This document shows positions 4,352-61,028 of a DNA stretch of 64,000 bases, piece by piece. This DNA comes from Desulforamulus hydrothermalis Lam5 = DSM 18033 (GTDB taxonomy: Bacteria; Bacillota; Desulfotomaculia; Desulfotomaculales; Desulfotomaculaceae). The notes below the pieces were generated by a model. It did not search any database, was not told the DNA's origin, and saw only the letters and a program-made list of their open reading frames with translations. The stretch's first letter is position 1, and each line of letters starts with the position of its first letter. The stretch spans positions 1-64,000 of the forward strand of contig NZ_CAOS01000009.1 of the NCBI RefSeq assembly GCF_000315365.1, read 5' to 3'. Made by a program: the position numbers and the translations under genes.

Positions 4352-4384
4352 GACAGGTTACCCACCAGGGTAGCCTGTTTTTAA
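4352..4384 (+). terminator. Rho-independent terminator after the polyferredoxin gene
   Basis: An 11-base stem (ACAGGTTACCC with GGGTAGCCTGT, one G-U pair) closed by a 4-base loop is followed by TTTTT. The ISL3-family element begins immediately after its T-tract. Confidence 0.8.
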
Positions 4385-4388
4385 TATA

Positions 4389-5728
4389 GGCTCTATGTCA
4401 AATGTTGGGGTGACAGGTGTCTACGGATACCTGTCGCCATATTTTTATGTCCAAAATTAAGCGCAGCAGTGAAGAATACGTGAGCGGAATCTATTAAAAT
4501 TTCTAAAACCAAAAGCATTACGCTTGATGACTTTAATTTTGTTGTTGTAGCCTTCAATACACCCATTTGAGTAAGGGACATCAAATGAATTTAGAATTTC
4601 AGTTTTCCAGTTTACGATTGTATTAGCCAGGTAGTAAAATTCTTTGATTTTATGTTGTTTAACGAGATTTAGCCACCGGTTAAGTTTTGATTCTGCTTCA
4701 ACAGAGGAACTTGCCTTTACAAAATCCATGAACTGTTCTTTCAAAAGATAAGAAACTCTAAGTTCATCATTAAAACGAAGGATGTTGGCCAATTTGATTT
4801 TAGAATCATCGCTTAACTTATCGGGTCTTGAGAGAAGGAGTCTACGGCTGAATTTTAAAAATCGGCGTTTTTCATAAGGTAAAGACTGCTGAACACGTTT
4901 TCTGACCTTATCAATAGCCCAAATGCAGTTTCTGACGTAGTGAAAGCGATCAATAACAATCGTAGCGTTAGGAAAAACCAGTTCGGCAGCCCGCTTATAA
5001 GGGCCCCACATATCAATAACAACATACTTAACCTTATCGAGATTATTAAACTTTTTAAAGTAGCTAACCAGATAATCCTGGGTACGGCTTTCAAGGATGT
5101 CAAGGACTTTGGAACTAATGGGATCAGCCAGAATGCAATGGTATTTACCTTTGTCAGTAGTGCCTTTAAACTCATCAATAGAGAGGACAGTAGGCAATTC
5201 CTTAAGGCTATAGGATAGGTAATCAAAGATTCTAGTGATAGTACATGGAGAGAGAGAAAAATCATCAGCGACAGAGCACATACTGGAGTTTGAGCGGAGC
5301 CTATCCACAACGGCCATAATCAGTCGTTTAGTCATTCTTTGATATTTACCGATAAAGTCAACTTGTTCGTAAAACTTCTTGTTACATTTACGGCAGTTAT
5401 ATCGTCGCTTGCGATATATTAAGTAAAGGGGTTTATTTAGCCAGGGAATATCCTTAATCTTTTGAGTTCGGTAGTCATGGATAGATTTAGTTAATGTCCC
5501 ACAAGCAGGGCACTTATGGGGTCTAACGGGCATTGATAGAGAGATTTCAGAGTGGCTGTCAAAATGCTCAACATTGCTAATAATAACATCTTTCAAATTA
5601 ATAAAATTTCTGATAGACTGAAATTGCATTTGGAAGAATACCTCCTCTTTGAGGGTTTGGTTTGGCGACTAAGGTATTCGACCAAATGCTTTTCTTTTTC
5701 CTGTCACCCCAACATTTATTTTAGAGCC
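4389..5728 (-). mobile_element. Complete ISL3-family insertion sequence
   Basis: This is a 1340-base element with imperfect terminal inverted repeats at 4389-4417 and 5700-5728 (GGCTCTA...AATGTTGGGGTGACAGG at both ends). It is flanked on each side by the same 8 bases, TTAATATA (4381-4388 and 5729-5736), the duplication length expected of ISL3. Its single gene is intact. Together these show a recent, probably still active insertion directly behind a terminator. Confidence 0.93.
4457..5629 (-). CDS. ISL3-family transposase
   Basis: A 390-residue transposase. It begins with a zinc finger (Cys40, Cys43, Cys79, Cys82: CPACG and CRKC) typical of ISL3, followed by a helix-turn-helix (about 110-140). 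The DDE catalytic core starts at LSIDEFKGTTDKGKYHCIL and continues through VVIDMWGPYKRAA and IVIDRFHYVRN; the final acidic residue is expected near GCIEGYNNKIKVIKR. Length and domain order match full-length family members. A GAGGAGGT ribosome site precedes the ATG at 5629. No lesion is visible. Confidence 0.92.
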   Translation of the reverse strand: MQFQSIRNFINLKDVIISNVEHFDSHSEISLSMPVRPHKCPACGTLTKSIHDYRTQKIKDIPWLNKPLYLIYRKRRYNCRKCNKKFYEQVDFIGKYQRMTKRLIMAVVDRLRSNSSMCSVADDFSLSPCTITRIFDYLSYSLKELPTVLSIDEFKGTTDKGKYHCILADPISSKVLDILESRTQDYLVSYFKKFNNLDKVKYVVIDMWGPYKRAAELVFPNATIVIDRFHYVRNCIWAIDKVRKRVQQSLPYEKRRFLKFSRRLLLSRPDKLSDDSKIKLANILRFNDELRVSYLLKEQFMDFVKASSSVEAESKLNRWLNLVKQHKIKEFYYLANTIVNWKTEILNSFDVPYSNGCIEGYNNKIKVIKRNAFGFRNFNRFRSRILHCCA

Positions 5729-5862
5729 TTAATATAAAACAAAAATTACTATATATATAATACACCCGTCCCGACAAGCAATGGACAAGATTAAATAGAA
5801 ATATTATTGTAATGGGGGAAAATATATAGTTAAACCAGTGATATCAGGTCGACAGCAATATT

Positions 5863-16560: not shown

Positions 16561-18711
16561 GTGGATGATGGAAGGTTATCCTGCCGGCAAGAGCATCCTT
16601 TTTTGGCATGGGTAAAAAAAGAAACCGGCATTAGTTTAAACAGTAGTCAACAGCAGGCGGTGCTGCACAAAGACGGGCCGCTGCTCCTGTTAGCAACACC
16701 CGGGGCGGGTAAAACCACTGTCTTAAATTTACGCATTGCTTACCTGTTATTAGAGCATCAAGCGGATCCCCGGCAAATACTGGCCCTTACCTTTAGCCGG
16801 GCAGCCGCCAGGGATATGGAAGCCAGGTTTCTAAACCTGTTTGGCCGGTGGATCAGGCAGCCGATCCGATTTTCTACCATACACAGTTTTGCTTATCAGG
16901 TGGTGGCAAATTATTTCAGGCGCCGGCAACGGCCCTTTAAGGTTATTGAAAATGAAACGGGATTCAACAGTAAAAGCGCCGTATTAAAAAGCATCTGCCA
17001 GAGGTTTTATGCCGCTGTGGTGAGCGAAGAAAAGCTGGAGGAGTTGGCCAATGCCATCGGCTATGTAAAAAATGCCATGCTTCCCCTGGCAGACATAGAT
17101 AAGCTGGATTTTAAAATAAATCATTTGAAAGAAATATATCTTGCTTATGAACAGTACAAGAAAACCAGTAATGCCCCAACTGTCCTGCTGGATTTTGATG
17201 ACATGCTCACGCTGGCCCACGATATTTTAGAAAAAGAAACGGGTCTGTTGGCTTTTTACCAAAATCAATACCGTTACATCATGACAGACGAGAGTCAGGA
17301 CACATCTCTGATACAACATAAAATTATTGAGAAAATAGCCAGGCCCCATGACAATTTATTTATGGTGGGGGATGAAGACCAGGCCATCTACGGCTTCCGC
17401 GGGGCAGCGCCCCGGTATCTGCTGGAGTTTAAGCAAACCTATCCCGGGGCTAAAGTTATAGCCATGACAGAGAATTTCCGGTCGTCTCAGGAAATAGTCA
17501 ACTTAACCAACCGGTTCATTAAAGCCAATCAAAAGCGCTATGCCAAAGAAATGTTTACCCGCAACGCCGGCCACAAACCGGTGCACGTGTGCAAGTTTAA
17601 ACATGAAGGTGAGCAGTGGGAATATCTTGTCCGGCAACTGTCCGGCGCCGGCGATCTATCGCAGAAGGCAATTATTTACCGTAACAATGCTTCGGCCATC
17701 GGTCTGATTAATAAACTGGAACAGCGGGGTATTCCTTTTTACCTCAGGGATTTTAAAAACCGCTTTTTTAACCACTGGGTGGTAGAGGACGTGCTGAATT
17801 TTCTGCGCTTTTCTTATAATGACAAAAGCACCGCTGTCCTGGAGAGGATTCACACCAAACTGAATCCCTTCATTTCTAAGGATGACCTGACTTTTTTAAA
17901 AGGGTTGGGTGAAACGGGTATCTGCTTAACCGTTCTGGCCGAGCGTTATGCCGGTGACAGTAAAAAAGCCCGGGGATTTTTAAAGCTGCAAAAGTATTTT
18001 AACCAGTTAAACAAGCTGTCTCCCCAGTGGGCTATCCGGTTTATCAGGCAAGAAATGAAGTATGAGGAAAGTGCCGAAAGGATCTGCAATAATTTAGGCT
18101 ATTCTTTCGATAATGTGAAAAGCATCCTGGCTAACCTGGAACATATTGCCGGCGGCTTGCCGGGCCACCAGGAATTTGCCGGTCGCTTGAAGGAGCTGGA
18201 AAAAATTATGGCGGAGGCCCAAAATAATCGGGGCCGTAATGCCGTCACACTGACCACGATGCATTCTGCTAAAGGGTTGGAGTTTCAGCGGGTATACCTG
18301 ATTGATTTGGTGGAAGGGGTAATCCCCGGGGCGGAAAGTATTAAAAAGGGCAACCAGGACAGCCTGGAAGAAGAAAGAAGATTATTTTATGTAGGCATGA
18401 CCAGGGCCGCCCGGGAGTTGTTTTTGTTAACCGTAGAAAATTATCAGCAGGAGCAGGTGCAGGAATCGCGCTTTGTTAAGGAAGTCAGGCAAATCCTGCA
18501 GCCGGCGGATAGAGCAGCGGCAACCCAAGCACAACCGGTGTCAAAACCACCGGCGGCCGGGATGTTTGTTGACCACAAAAAATTTGGCGTAGGCAAGGTT
18601 CTTTCGGTTAACATGGGTAAGGATACCCTGCGGGTTGGTTTTGAAAACGGGCAGGTTAAAGATTTACTGTACAGCGTTTGTGTTGAGAATAATTTAATCC
18701 GCATTTTATAA
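16561..18711 (+). CDS. UvrD/Rep-like ATP-dependent DNA helicase
   Basis: A 716-residue superfamily 1A 3'-5' helicase. Visible motifs are: Q-motif SSQQQAVLH, motif I ATPGAGKTT (45-53), Ia LALTFSRAAARDM, II TDESQD (242-247; Ser replaces Ala of the usual DEAQD/DEYQD), III GDEDQAIYGFRGA, IV region TENFRSSQEIV, V TMHSAKGLEFQRVY and VI EERRLFYVGMTRA. The C-terminus DHKKFGVGKVLSVNMG is the Tudor-like tail of PcrA/UvrD. It acts in repair or replication restart. The GTG start has AGAGGTG eight bases upstream. It stands alone between the exporter and a terminator-associated repeat. Confidence 0.88.
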   Translation: MDDGRLSCRQEHPFLAWVKKETGISLNSSQQQAVLHKDGPLLLLATPGAGKTTVLNLRIAYLLLEHQADPRQILALTFSRAAARDMEARFLNLFGRWIRQPIRFSTIHSFAYQVVANYFRRRQRPFKVIENETGFNSKSAVLKSICQRFYAAVVSEEKLEELANAIGYVKNAMLPLADIDKLDFKINHLKEIYLAYEQYKKTSNAPTVLLDFDDMLTLAHDILEKETGLLAFYQNQYRYIMTDESQDTSLIQHKIIEKIARPHDNLFMVGDEDQAIYGFRGAAPRYLLEFKQTYPGAKVIAMTENFRSSQEIVNLTNRFIKANQKRYAKEMFTRNAGHKPVHVCKFKHEGEQWEYLVRQLSGAGDLSQKAIIYRNNASAIGLINKLEQRGIPFYLRDFKNRFFNHWVVEDVLNFLRFSYNDKSTAVLERIHTKLNPFISKDDLTFLKGLGETGICLTVLAERYAGDSKKARGFLKLQKYFNQLNKLSPQWAIRFIRQEMKYEESAERICNNLGYSFDNVKSILANLEHIAGGLPGHQEFAGRLKELEKIMAEAQNNRGRNAVTLTTMHSAKGLEFQRVYLIDLVEGVIPGAESIKKGNQDSLEEERRLFYVGMTRAARELFLLTVENYQQEQVQESRFVKEVRQILQPADRAAATQAQPVSKPPAAGMFVDHKKFGVGKVLSVNMGKDTLRVGFENGQVKDLLYSVCVENNLIRIL

Positions 18712-18733: not shown

Positions 18734-19048
18734 GGGGCAGCGTATTTTTCCGCTGCCCCAGCGTGTCGACAAAGGTTATCGGTGGTTTATGATCCCCTTT
18801 GGCTCCGGTCTACGCACCGACAGCACTATGATTCGCTACGGCGGCCATTGGGGTCGCCTCAAACGGGCCCTCCTGGCCCGGTTCGGCTGGCGCCCACGTC
18901 CTGTGGGCGCCACCCCAATGGCCCCTTCGCTCATCAAGTGCTGTGACCGGTGCTTCGACAAGTCGCCGGCAGGGGATCAGCAAACCACCTTGACATTGTT
19001 TTGCAGCCTTTGTCTACAGTCTGGGGCAGTGTATTTTTCCGCTGCCCC
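18734..19048. repeat. Foldback repeat, copy A, flanked by duplicated terminator hairpin
   Basis: The core (18760-19022, 263 bases) is an imperfect palindrome. Its ends are inverted repeats (CAGCGTGTCGACAAAGG at the left, CAGACTGTAGACAAAGG reversed at the right). Inside these, GGTGGTTTATGATCCCC pairs with GGGGATCAGCAAACCACC, and GGCCATTGGGGT pairs with its exact complement around GC-rich inner hairpins. On both sides lies the same 26-base hairpin, GGGGCAGCG-tatttttc-CGCTGCCCC (18734-18759 and 19023-19048, one difference). Only the right copy keeps a T-tract. It sits between two convergent genes. Two further full copies are at 46922-47229 and 58588-58905. Confidence 0.9.
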
Positions 19049-19099: not shown

Positions 19100-19732
19100 T
19101 TAGCGGATAAAATTCATAAATGTTTTAGCCTCTCTTTCCGGAGGTTTGATGGTTTGCTTGCCGCCTTCAATTACTTTTAAAAGCCACGCCATATTTCTAC
19201 CAAGCACCCGCATGATTTGTACACCTTCTTCATCCTGCACTGCTTCGCCGGGTTTGGTGCCATGAATGACATTCCAATAATTTGAAGTGGGCAGGAACAT
19301 TTCGGAATAATGAAGATAATTATTTAGCTGGTCAAAGGTAGGCAGCCCGCCGGAACGTCTTACGGCAACCACCGCTGCACCGACTTTGTGCCGTAGCAGG
19401 CCGTTGTTAACGCTGGCAACATAAAAAGCCCTGTCCAAAAATGCTTTCATGGTGCCGGCAATGGCGGAATAGTGAACAGGTGACCCCAAAATTATACCGT
19501 CCGCTTCTTTCATTTTTTGAATCCATTCATTAACCTCATCAGCAATAATACATTTTTCATCTTTGTTTTTTACGCATTGACCACATGCAGTACAACCTTT
19601 AATGGTTTTGTTGCCCACCTGAATAATTTCCGTTTGGATGCCTTCTTTTTCCAGCTCATCTGCTACCAGCTTAATGGCATGATAAGTGTTTCCGTTTTTA
19701 TGCGGGCTGCCGTTAAAAGCTACAACTTTCAT
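19100..19732 (-). CDS. Iron-sulfur flavoprotein / NADPH-dependent FMN reductase-like
   Basis: A 210-residue flavodoxin-fold protein. The FMN phosphate loop is GSPHKNGNTYHAI (9-21). A compact Cys cluster, GCTACGQCVKNKDEKC, matches the 4Fe-4S motif of the archaeal/clostridial Isf family. LGSPVHYSAIAGTMKAFLDR is the conserved flavin-site segment. These proteins move electrons between ferredoxin and acceptors such as O2 or H2O2. TAAGGAGG precedes the ATG. It converges on the uvrD gene across the repeat element, and its downstream terminator is the duplicated hairpin there. Confidence 0.85.
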   Translation of the reverse strand: MKVVAFNGSPHKNGNTYHAIKLVADELEKEGIQTEIIQVGNKTIKGCTACGQCVKNKDEKCIIADEVNEWIQKMKEADGIILGSPVHYSAIAGTMKAFLDRAFYVASVNNGLLRHKVGAAVVAVRRSGGLPTFDQLNNYLHYSEMFLPTSNYWNVIHGTKPGEAVQDEEGVQIMRVLGRNMAWLLKVIEGGKQTIKPPEREAKTFMNFIR

Positions 19733-42845: not shown

Positions 42846-43029
42846 AATTCACCTCTCAAACAATAAATTGAAACAATATGTTTATTATAACAAAGATTTT
42901 ATCTGCAGGGGAGAAAAAGCAGCGCTTTTGCAACGGAAGAAAAGCGGGCACAAAGTTTGACTTACAATAGTTAATTAGAATTTGTGTCCTGCTTGGCAAA
43001 ACCAAGGTTGGCTGCAAATGACGGCGGTG

Positions 43030-43078
43030 GTTTATGATCCGCTGTCAAGGGGCACAAACCACCGCAAAGGTTGGTAAC
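43030..43078. repeat. Possible remnant of the foldback repeat
   Basis: GCGGTGGTTTATGATCC (43030-43046) matches the inner arm of the foldback repeat. About 20 bases further, AAACCACCGCAAAGGTTGG resembles the opposite arm. The two arms alone would fold into a hairpin. An internal deletion of a full copy would leave this. It lies between uppP and the ArsB/NhaD gene and may serve as its terminator. Confidence 0.4.
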
Positions 43079-43082
43079 AGCT

Positions 43083-44357
43083 CTAGTAAATAAACAGCAG
43101 CAGATAAACGGTAGCCATGATTATTGACAAAAGCATCAACGGAAAAGCAATTTTCATAAAAGATAAAAAACCCAGGTGATACCCTCTTTTTTCCACCATA
43201 CCGGCCACAATAACATTGGCGGCAGCTCCTACCAGAGAACCGTTGCCACCCAGGCAGGCCCCCAGGGCGAGGGACCACCAGAGAGGATTTAAGTCAGCAA
43301 TACCGCCCATTTGCCCCATCTGCAGCAATAAAGGAATCATGGTGGCCACAAAGGGTATATTGTCCACAAAGGTGGATGCCAGGGCAGACAGCCAGAGGAT
43401 TAACAACCCGGTGGTAACGATCTCCCCGCCGGTCAAATGCAAAGCACTTTCTGCCACCCAGTGAATAACCCCGTTTTCTTCCAGGGCGCCAACCAGCACA
43501 AACAAGCCTACAAAGAAAAAAATAGTGGGCCACTCTACGCTTTCCAGCACATGTTCCGGTTCTTCTCTGGTCATCAGCATTAACAGTACGGCGCCGCCCA
43601 GAGCAATGGTGGCAGTGGGCAGATGAATCAGGGCATGCAGTCCAAAACCTAAAATGGTAAGCCCCAATGCCCATAAGCACTTAGTTAACAGTTTTTTATC
43701 TTTAATTTGTTCTGCCGGGTTAAGTTGGGTTATTTTTTCCATCAGTTCATGGTCTGCTTGTAAATCTTTACGGTAAATGATTCGCAGTATGGCCACCGTG
43801 ACAATAAATACAACTACCGCTATGGGACCCAGGTTATAAATAAATTCCATAAAAGATATGCCGGCCGGGCCGCTAATCATAATATTAGGCGGATCACCAA
43901 TGAGGGTGGCGGTGCCGCCAATGTTGCAGGCCAGGATTTCCGTAATAATAAAAGGAATCGGGTTAATTTGCAGTTCTTTGCAAATAGAAAAGGTTACCGG
44001 TACCACCAGCAGGACAGCTGTCACATTGTCCAAAAAGGCTGAAGCTACAGCTGTAATGACGGACAAAAATATAAGAATGGTCATCGGGTCGCCTTTCGCT
44101 TTGATGGCCGACTTAAGGGCCAGGTATTCAAAGACACCGGTGCGGCGGGTGATGCCGACAATAATCATCATACCCACCAGCAGGCCGATGGTGTTCCAAT
44201 CAATATATTCAACTGCTTTATCCTGGGTAACTAAGCCGGCAAACAAAACCACCACTGCTCCGGCCAGTGCTACCACTGTACGATTAATTTTTTCCGAAAC
44301 AATTAAGGCATAAGTAAGAATAAAGATAATGCTTGAAAGGATAAATTTATTGTCCAT
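43083..44357 (-). CDS. ArsB/NhaD-type membrane transporter
   Basis: A 424-residue ion transporter superfamily protein with about 11-12 helices. It shows VALAGAVVVLFAGLVTQDKAV, VASAFLDNVTAVLLVVPVTF, CNIGGTATLIGDPPNIMI (the GDPxN motif) and ALGACLGGNGSLVGAAANVI in the second half. The family covers arsenite, Na+/H+ and dicarboxylate carriers, and I cannot choose between them. ATG 44357 is taken because GAGGT lies five bases before it. TerC ends 46 bases upstream, so both are likely read from the manganese-riboswitch promoter. Confidence 0.82.
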   Translation of the reverse strand: MDNKFILSSIIFILTYALIVSEKINRTVVALAGAVVVLFAGLVTQDKAVEYIDWNTIGLLVGMMIIVGITRRTGVFEYLALKSAIKAKGDPMTILIFLSVITAVASAFLDNVTAVLLVVPVTFSICKELQINPIPFIITEILACNIGGTATLIGDPPNIMISGPAGISFMEFIYNLGPIAVVVFIVTVAILRIIYRKDLQADHELMEKITQLNPAEQIKDKKLLTKCLWALGLTILGFGLHALIHLPTATIALGGAVLLMLMTREEPEHVLESVEWPTIFFFVGLFVLVGALEENGVIHWVAESALHLTGGEIVTTGLLILWLSALASTFVDNIPFVATMIPLLLQMGQMGGIADLNPLWWSLALGACLGGNGSLVGAAANVIVAGMVEKRGYHLGFLSFMKIAFPLMLLSIIMATVYLLLFIY

Positions 44358-46921: not shown

Positions 46922-47229
46922 GCCGTTGTTTTTAGCAACGGCCAGACTGTAGACAAAGTCTGCAAAACAATGTCAAGGTGGTTTTATGATCCCCTGTCGG
47001 CGACTTGTCGAAGCACCGGTCACAGCACTTGATGAGCGAAAGGAGCCATTGGGGGGGCGCCCACAGGATGTGGGCGCCAGCCGAACCGGGCCAGGATGGC
47101 CCGTTTGAGGCGACCCCAAGGGCGACTGTAGCGAATCATAGTGCTGTCGGTGCGTAGACCGGAGCCAAAGGGGATCATAAACCACCGATAATGTTTGTCA
47201 ACACCCTGGCCGTTACTTTTAGCAACGGC
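46922..47229. repeat. Foldback repeat, copy B, flanked by duplicated terminator hairpin
   Basis: The core (46943-47208, 266 bases) lies opposite to copy A and is nearly the same in sequence; ends are CAGACTGTAGACAAAG and, reversed, CAGGGTGTTGACAAA. It is flanked on both sides by a 21-base hairpin, GCCGTTG-tttttag-CAACGGC (46922-46942) and the same with two changes (47209-47229). This hairpin is unrelated to those of copies A and C. It follows the CmpB-like gene, where a terminator would be expected, and reading on the minus strand only the far copy runs into a T-rich stretch. Confidence 0.9.
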
Positions 47230-58580: not shown

Positions 58581-58587
58581 ATAACAG

Positions 58588-58905
58588 GACGGGGTGTTGT
58601 TTACCCTGTCTCAGACTGTAGACAAAGGTTGTAAAACAAAGCGAGGAGGTTTTATGATCTCCTGCCGGCGACTTGTCGAAGCGCCGGTAACAGCACTTGA
58701 TGAGCGAAAGGAGCCATTGGGGGGCGCCCACAGGATGTGGGCGCCAGCCGAACCGGGCCAGGAGGGGCCGTTTGAGGCGACCCCAAGGGCGACTGTAGCG
58801 AATCATAGTGCTGTCGGTGCGTAGACCGGAGCCAAAGGGGATCATAAACCACCGATACCGATAATGTTTGTCTACACTCTGGGACGGGGTGTTGTTTACC
58901 CCGTC
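58588..58905. repeat. Foldback repeat, copy C, flanked by duplicated terminator hairpin
   Basis: The core (58611-58882, 272 bases) has the same orientation as copy B and starts CAGACTGTAGACAAAGG. Near its other end it has a six-base local duplication (ACCGATACCGATAATG). The flanks are a 23-base hairpin GACGGGGT-gttgttt-ACCCTGTC (58588-58610) and the same with one change (58883-58905). It separates two convergent genes. Confidence 0.9.
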
Positions 58906-58915
58906 TTGTTTTGCC

Positions 58916-60908: not shown

Positions 60909-60968
60909 GACAGGGTTTTTTAACCCCGTCCCGTGTCGACAAACATTACCGATGGTTGATGACCCCTT
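60909..60968. repeat. End remnant of the foldback repeat behind a terminator hairpin
   Basis: GACAGGGTT-tttt-AACCCCGTC (60909-60930) is a terminator-like hairpin. Directly after it, GTGTCGACAAACATTACCGA (from 60933) and TGGTTGATGACCCC match the left end of the foldback repeat (GTGTCGACAAAGGTTATCGG then TGGTTTATGATCCCC in copy A). The rest of the repeat and a second hairpin copy are missing. Confidence 0.75.
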
Positions 60969-61028
60969 GCAGTTTTTATAACTTTAGACTATGAAACAGG
61001 ATCTGCAACCCCGGCTGTACGCACTGTA

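Follow-up and report, generated by a model that had tools for sequence, protein, structure and literature searches.

A gene-less palindromic element of Desulforamulus hydrothermalis that duplicates target hairpins and is very probably mobilised by an IS1182-family transposase

The window analyzed here, the first 64,000 nucleotides of contig NZ_CAOS01000009.1, belongs to the draft genome of Desulforamulus hydrothermalis Lam5 = DSM 18033 (2.69 Mb, 16 contigs). Between two convergent ORFs, helicase-like and reductase-like, lies copy A of a MITE whose termini, CAGACTGTAGACAAAG and CAGCGTGTCGACAAAG, are imperfect inverted ends of 16 nt (Table 1). Its calculated folding energy is -145 to -151 kcal/mol (z ~ -10.5), and its sole ORF, of 88 aa, is a chance one; no transposase gene is present. 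A preliminary description had pictured a 263-base palindrome with 17-base terminal repeats, lying between copies of a 26-base hairpin that agree at 25 of 26 positions. The palindrome and the flanking duplication are indeed there, with the element measuring 265 nt, the terminal repeats 16 nt and the duplicated hairpin 24 nt, identical at 23 of 24 positions. Both further full copies claimed for the window, each between its own duplicated and different hairpin, were found, at 46943–47208 and 58612–58881.

Table 1. Features of the window that bear on the element and its insertion sites
Feature	Position	Strand	Details
UvrD-like helicase ORF	16561–18711	+	716 aa; named by eye from sequence; copy A lies in its terminator region
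Left target duplication of copy A	18735–18758		hairpin GGGCAGCGTATTTTTCCGCTGCCC; 24 nt
MITE copy A	18759–19023	-	265 nt; end CAGACTGTAGACAAAG at 19023, end CAGCGTGTCGACAAAG at 18759
MITE core matching Rfam RF01731 TwoAYGGAY	18807–18960	-	56.8 bits, gathering 43
Right target duplication of copy A	19024–19047		hairpin GGGCAGTGTATTTTTCCGCTGCCC; 24 nt; 23/24 identical to left hairpin
Flavodoxin/NAD(P)H reductase-like ORF	19100–19732	-	210 aa; named by eye from sequence
Left target duplication of copy B	46922–46942		hairpin GCCGTTGTTTTTAGCAACGGC
MITE copy B	46943–47208	+	266 nt
Right target duplication of copy B	47209–47229		hairpin GCCGTTACTTTTAGCAACGGC
Left target duplication of copy C	58587–58611		hairpin GGACGGGGTGTTGTTTACCCTGTCT
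MITE copy C	58612–58881	+	270 nt; orthologous D. putei site empty, single hairpin
Right target duplication of copy C	58882–58906		hairpin GGACGGGGTGTTGTTTACCCCGTCT
Hairpin	60909–60930		GACAGGGTTTTTTAACCCCGTC; adjoins MITE end fragment
Truncated MITE right end	60931–60969	-	CCGTGTCGACAAACATTACCGATGGTTGATGACCCCTTG

The element is dispersed throughout the genome, and nearly all of its insertions lie precisely at the base of a gene's terminator hairpin. A search of the genomic DNA returned at least 40 full-length copies with identities of at least 91% (the best 40 of 176 candidates), and the 16-nt end has 96 matches in the genome compared with none for the reversed control. Among the loci fetched, 70 copies have two recognisable ends, 56 of them long and 14 short, where the short form (111–116 nt) corresponds to the long form minus its core. 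Of these 70 copies, 58 are flanked by a duplication of 15 nt or more; it ranges from 17 to 29 nt and consists of a hairpin that differs from copy to copy, and only 0.3% of shuffled flank pairs are as similar as the flanks of the MITE copies. In the reconstructed element-free sites, the dyad of the hairpin falls within 1 nt of the centre of the duplication in 53 of the 58 cases, as anticipated if a hairpin is recognised and cut at its base. The remaining five also look symmetric by eye; the pairing rule used was a simple one and scored them wrongly. At least 80% symmetric pairs are present in 47 of the 50 duplications listed, compared with 2.6% of shuffles. Apart from a preference for A as the opening and T as the closing nucleotide of the duplication, the junctions have no sequence consensus, and the orientation of the element relative to the T-run is 17:18, from which it follows that the direction of transcription is irrelevant to insertion. 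Where the two hairpin copies have diverged, stems differ less than loops (3.5% and 8.0%, respectively), and equal-length pairs contain no two-sided, compensatory changes; the pair at L017 looks compensatory by eye but involves a length change, and was left out of the count.

Twelve of the 70 two-ended copies lack a clear 15-nt duplication, some having 7–8 nt or none and some being partial, and three of the twelve (L076, L082 and L110) resemble diverged hairpin duplicates when inspected by eye. Flanks without duplication had been named beforehand as an observation that would speak against target duplication; in view of the 58 copies with at least 15 nt and the few with 7–8 nt or none, hairpin duplication is the rule without being universal. 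Two copies, L060 (AACTTGTT) and L068 (AGTAAAT), are inserted in non-hairpin DNA with duplications of 7–8 nt, and these two cases may reflect the default stagger of the transposase on ordinary DNA. The copies are not all independent, since L071 (contig C3, 556k) and L082 (contig C11, 203k) have both flanks in common and represent a segmental duplication that carries the element. The ends of these two are closer to a second subfamily, CAGACTGTGGACAAAG.

To compare filled with element-free sites, the flanks of 14 MITE copies were joined with a single hairpin and aligned with the genome of Desulforamulus putei DSM 12395. Seven of the 14 (L044, L022, L025, L048, L051, L066 and window copy C) align across the junction in D. 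putei, where the element is absent and a single hairpin is present. A search of D. putei for the empty sites of copies A and B found none; for copy A, the alignment is confined to the helicase side. An equivalent comparison is provided by ISEfa7, an IS1182-family member on the Enterococcus faecium plasmid pELF_AA94, which has AAACGATGCCTATTTAGCATCGTTT on either side. The joined one-hairpin version of this site (475 nt) has matches in 28 plasmids that cover 80% or more of it, two of which are 100% identical to the whole of it. For E. casseliflavus, no element-free plasmid was found. Because a single hairpin is present at the element-free orthologues and in the near-identical plasmids, and two at the filled sites, we conclude that the complete hairpin is duplicated on insertion, as the preliminary description had proposed, with single-hairpin empty sites in relatives as the test. 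The seven empty D. putei sites, together with the 70 two-ended copies and the missing transposase gene, also uphold its view of a mobile, non-autonomous element.

The same terminal repeat bounds elements of 1604–1607 nt that encode a transposase, in D. putei and in a second genome of the genus, G008. The MITE ends (CAGACTGTAGACAAAG/CAGAGTGTCGACAAAC) and the ends of the autonomous IS (CAGACTGTCGACAAAG/CAGACTGTAGACAAAC) are common terminal repeats; the latter enclose a single ORF, and the length of the element falls within the ~1.5–1.8 kb of IS1182 members. The encoded transposases contain DUF772 and DDE_Tnp_1_6 domains, and score 456 and 389 bits against the IS1182 model NF033551 (cut-off 270). 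All five IS copies in G008 are flanked by perfect duplications of a whole hairpin, and the same holds for a related IS in genome G004 (three copies); target choice and whole-hairpin duplication are accordingly common to the MITE and the autonomous IS. A palindrome-preferring IS family had been put forward as a candidate source, to be sought by its terminal repeat, and the search has yielded just such an IS, which belongs to the IS1182 family and duplicates hairpins itself.

In the draft genome of D. hydrothermalis we found no autonomous IS that matches; two PF13751 proteins (L031 and L032) were considered there. Both were rejected as the source, with scores of 116–122 bits falling below the NF033551 cut-off of 270, and there are no matching ends around L031. 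The autonomous IS may have been lost, may be absent from the draft assembly, or may never have been resident. With no match in its own genome, the MITE would be moved in trans by an IS1182-family transposase. Overall, we consider it very probable that this MITE owes its mobility to a DDE transposase of the IS1182 family, of the type that sister Desulforamulus species retain.

We also analyzed IS1182 copies across Firmicutes, in a set of 80 relatives from a named-genome scan, to which the relatives described above and ten plasmid loci were added. Both ends and flanks were available for 78 loci, and 77 were usable after one N-masked locus had been left out. A duplication of 19–34 nt is present in 51 of the 77 copies; the 51 sequences are all distinct, and 50 are symmetric hairpins. 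The other 26 copies have no duplication, but a hairpin abuts both ends in 15 and one end in 10, compared with 11% of control positions. The 15 copies with a hairpin at each end usually have two different hairpins, and these mismatched pairs would be the product of recombination between IS copies or of intramolecular transposition. Copies with a different hairpin at each end include L164, L166, L181, L182, L184, L186 and L190, and further L198, L199, L202, L206, L212, L216 and L231.

In a typical DDE transposition, the duplication has a small and constant length that is set by the spacing of the two active sites. Here, both MITE and IS insert at hairpins with cuts that are symmetric about the dyad, and the length of the duplication (17–34 nt) follows the span of the hairpin. 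A duplication of such length that differs from site to site and consists of the target's own hairpin points to recognition of DNA structure. The shape of the DNA, rather than its sequence, appears to set both the place and the width of the cuts, since the full transposon in sister species and other bacteria also inserts at hairpins and duplicates them. With a DDE complex of fixed geometry, a long and variable stagger would require the fold of the target to bring the two points of cutting close to each other. We propose that: (i) the transposase would recognise an extruded cruciform; (ii) the four-way junction of the cruciform would hold the two 5' feet next to each other, irrespective of arm length; (iii) the 3' ends of the element would be joined to these feet; and (iv) repair of the single-stranded hairpins would leave one full hairpin on each side. 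Extended to a clade of IS1182 transposases across Firmicutes and the MITEs derived from it, this reading, in which the transposase assembles on the four-way junction, joins both 5' feet and leaves a duplication set by arm length and not by active-site spacing, is one that we moderately favor. As a complete hairpin remains on each side, insertion would be nearly neutral and the terminator is probably kept, which hints at how a mobile element that enters terminators can reach about 70 sites with little harm. The insertions also raise the possibility of hairpin extrusion in vivo at a frequency sufficient to provide targets.

A different and rather unlikely route would have the transposase act on a single-stranded hairpin, for example one exposed in the template of the lagging strand or in the wake of RNA polymerase, with repair leaving two hairpins. 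In a single strand, terminator hairpins form easily, and recognition of single-strand hairpins is known from IS200/IS605; however, DDE insertion with duplication requires that both strands are joined, and both the symmetry of the cuts about the dyad and the balanced orientation relative to the terminator (17:18) argue against this route. Far less probable is a stem-loop replacement of the IS1272 type, where the element replaces a hairpin and the flanking hairpins are older tandem terminators. Deletion of target hairpins does occur within the family, in IS1272 and TnSha1 (PMC5678879, PMC4923244), but at most sites studied here the flanking hairpins are copies of one another, and the element-free D. 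putei and Enterococcus plasmid sites have exactly one hairpin, which refutes replacement at the sites tested. That the hairpins belong to the element as long variable ends, which their precise junction with the ends might suggest, is scarcely credible given that the hairpin differs at every site (51 distinct sequences in the IS set), and is refuted by the presence of the same hairpin at element-free orthologous sites. Nor do we see a realistic case for a REP/RAYT or IS200/IS605-type (HUH) system moving the palindrome: HUH systems use hairpins and the element folds back on itself, but it has terminal inverted repeats and duplications of 17–29 nt, where HUH systems have neither long terminal inverted repeats nor target duplications, and its same-ended partner encodes a DDE transposase.

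The cruciform reading can be set against what is described for the IS1182 family. Direct repeats of 2–60 bp are given for the family in ISfinder (PMC7335449), a range that fits variable hairpin duplications, and palindrome targeting is stated for some members (cited in PMC5678879 and PMC4923244). The partner IS resembles IS1182 (ISfinder; NF033551; including ISEfa7) in its transposase, terminal repeats and DDE domain, whereas the window element itself encodes no transposase. The staphylococcal IS1182-family elements IS1272 and TnSha1 are like the MITE in targeting terminator hairpins by structure and not by sequence. TnSha1 targets hairpins with partial deletion (Furi et al. 2016; PMC4923244), and IS1272 performs stem-loop replacement, with hairpin duplication drawn only as a possible pathway b (Wan et al. 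2017; PMC5678879). IS1272 thus removes or replaces the hairpin without duplication, whereas the MITE duplicates it, as in pathway b. In the open-access literature we found no description, for IS1182, of complete-hairpin duplication symmetric about the dyad. Palindromic targets and variable duplications are already known for IS1182, and whole-hairpin duplication was earlier only hypothetical in that literature. Our data lend support, from natural insertions, to the duplication branch of the model proposed for IS1272, and make about 100 natural insertion sites, together with an identified sister-species transposase, available for testing it. If the shape reading is true, this would be a mode of target duplication without an experimental report for DDE transposases in the open-access literature, although subscription journals or ISfinder notes may hold one.

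Like other bacterial MITEs, the window element is short, gene-less and multicopy, with terminal inverted repeats and target duplications; it differs from them in having a target duplication of variable length, defined by structure. The SMR-A repeats of Haloquadratum are also short, have terminal repeats and are inserted in palindromes (PMC3119063), but are without target duplications and have no sequence relation to known transposons. Haloquadratum PATEs were ruled out as a match, having neither terminal inverted repeats nor duplications.

The Rfam family TwoAYGGAY is matched by the core of the long form: at five loci, copy A among them, the covariance model gives 52.8–61.5 bits, above the gathering score. 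The match was noted in the window (Table 1) and at L033–L036 and L039. A comparative screen gave rise to this family (PMC2864571), for which binding of CsrA has been suggested (PMC4333381). Rfam classes it as cis-regulatory; within the MITE, the core may be a passenger RNA or may serve transposition. In this genome, the motif forms the interior of a dispersed mobile element and is restricted to its long form, the 111–116-nt form being without it. Related cores in other Desulforamulus and in order-level relatives lie within other long palindromes, the outer stems of which are locus-specific.

Two further repeats were observed in the window. An ISL3-family insertion sequence with inverted ends of 42 nt occupies positions 4376–5741 and encodes its transposase on the minus strand (4457–5629; NF033550, 342 bits); an end of the same kind also lies beside L031. 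At 43002–43085, a short palindromic repeat contains the GGTGGTTTATGATC block of the MITE but has different ends, and possibly represents a different small repeat family.
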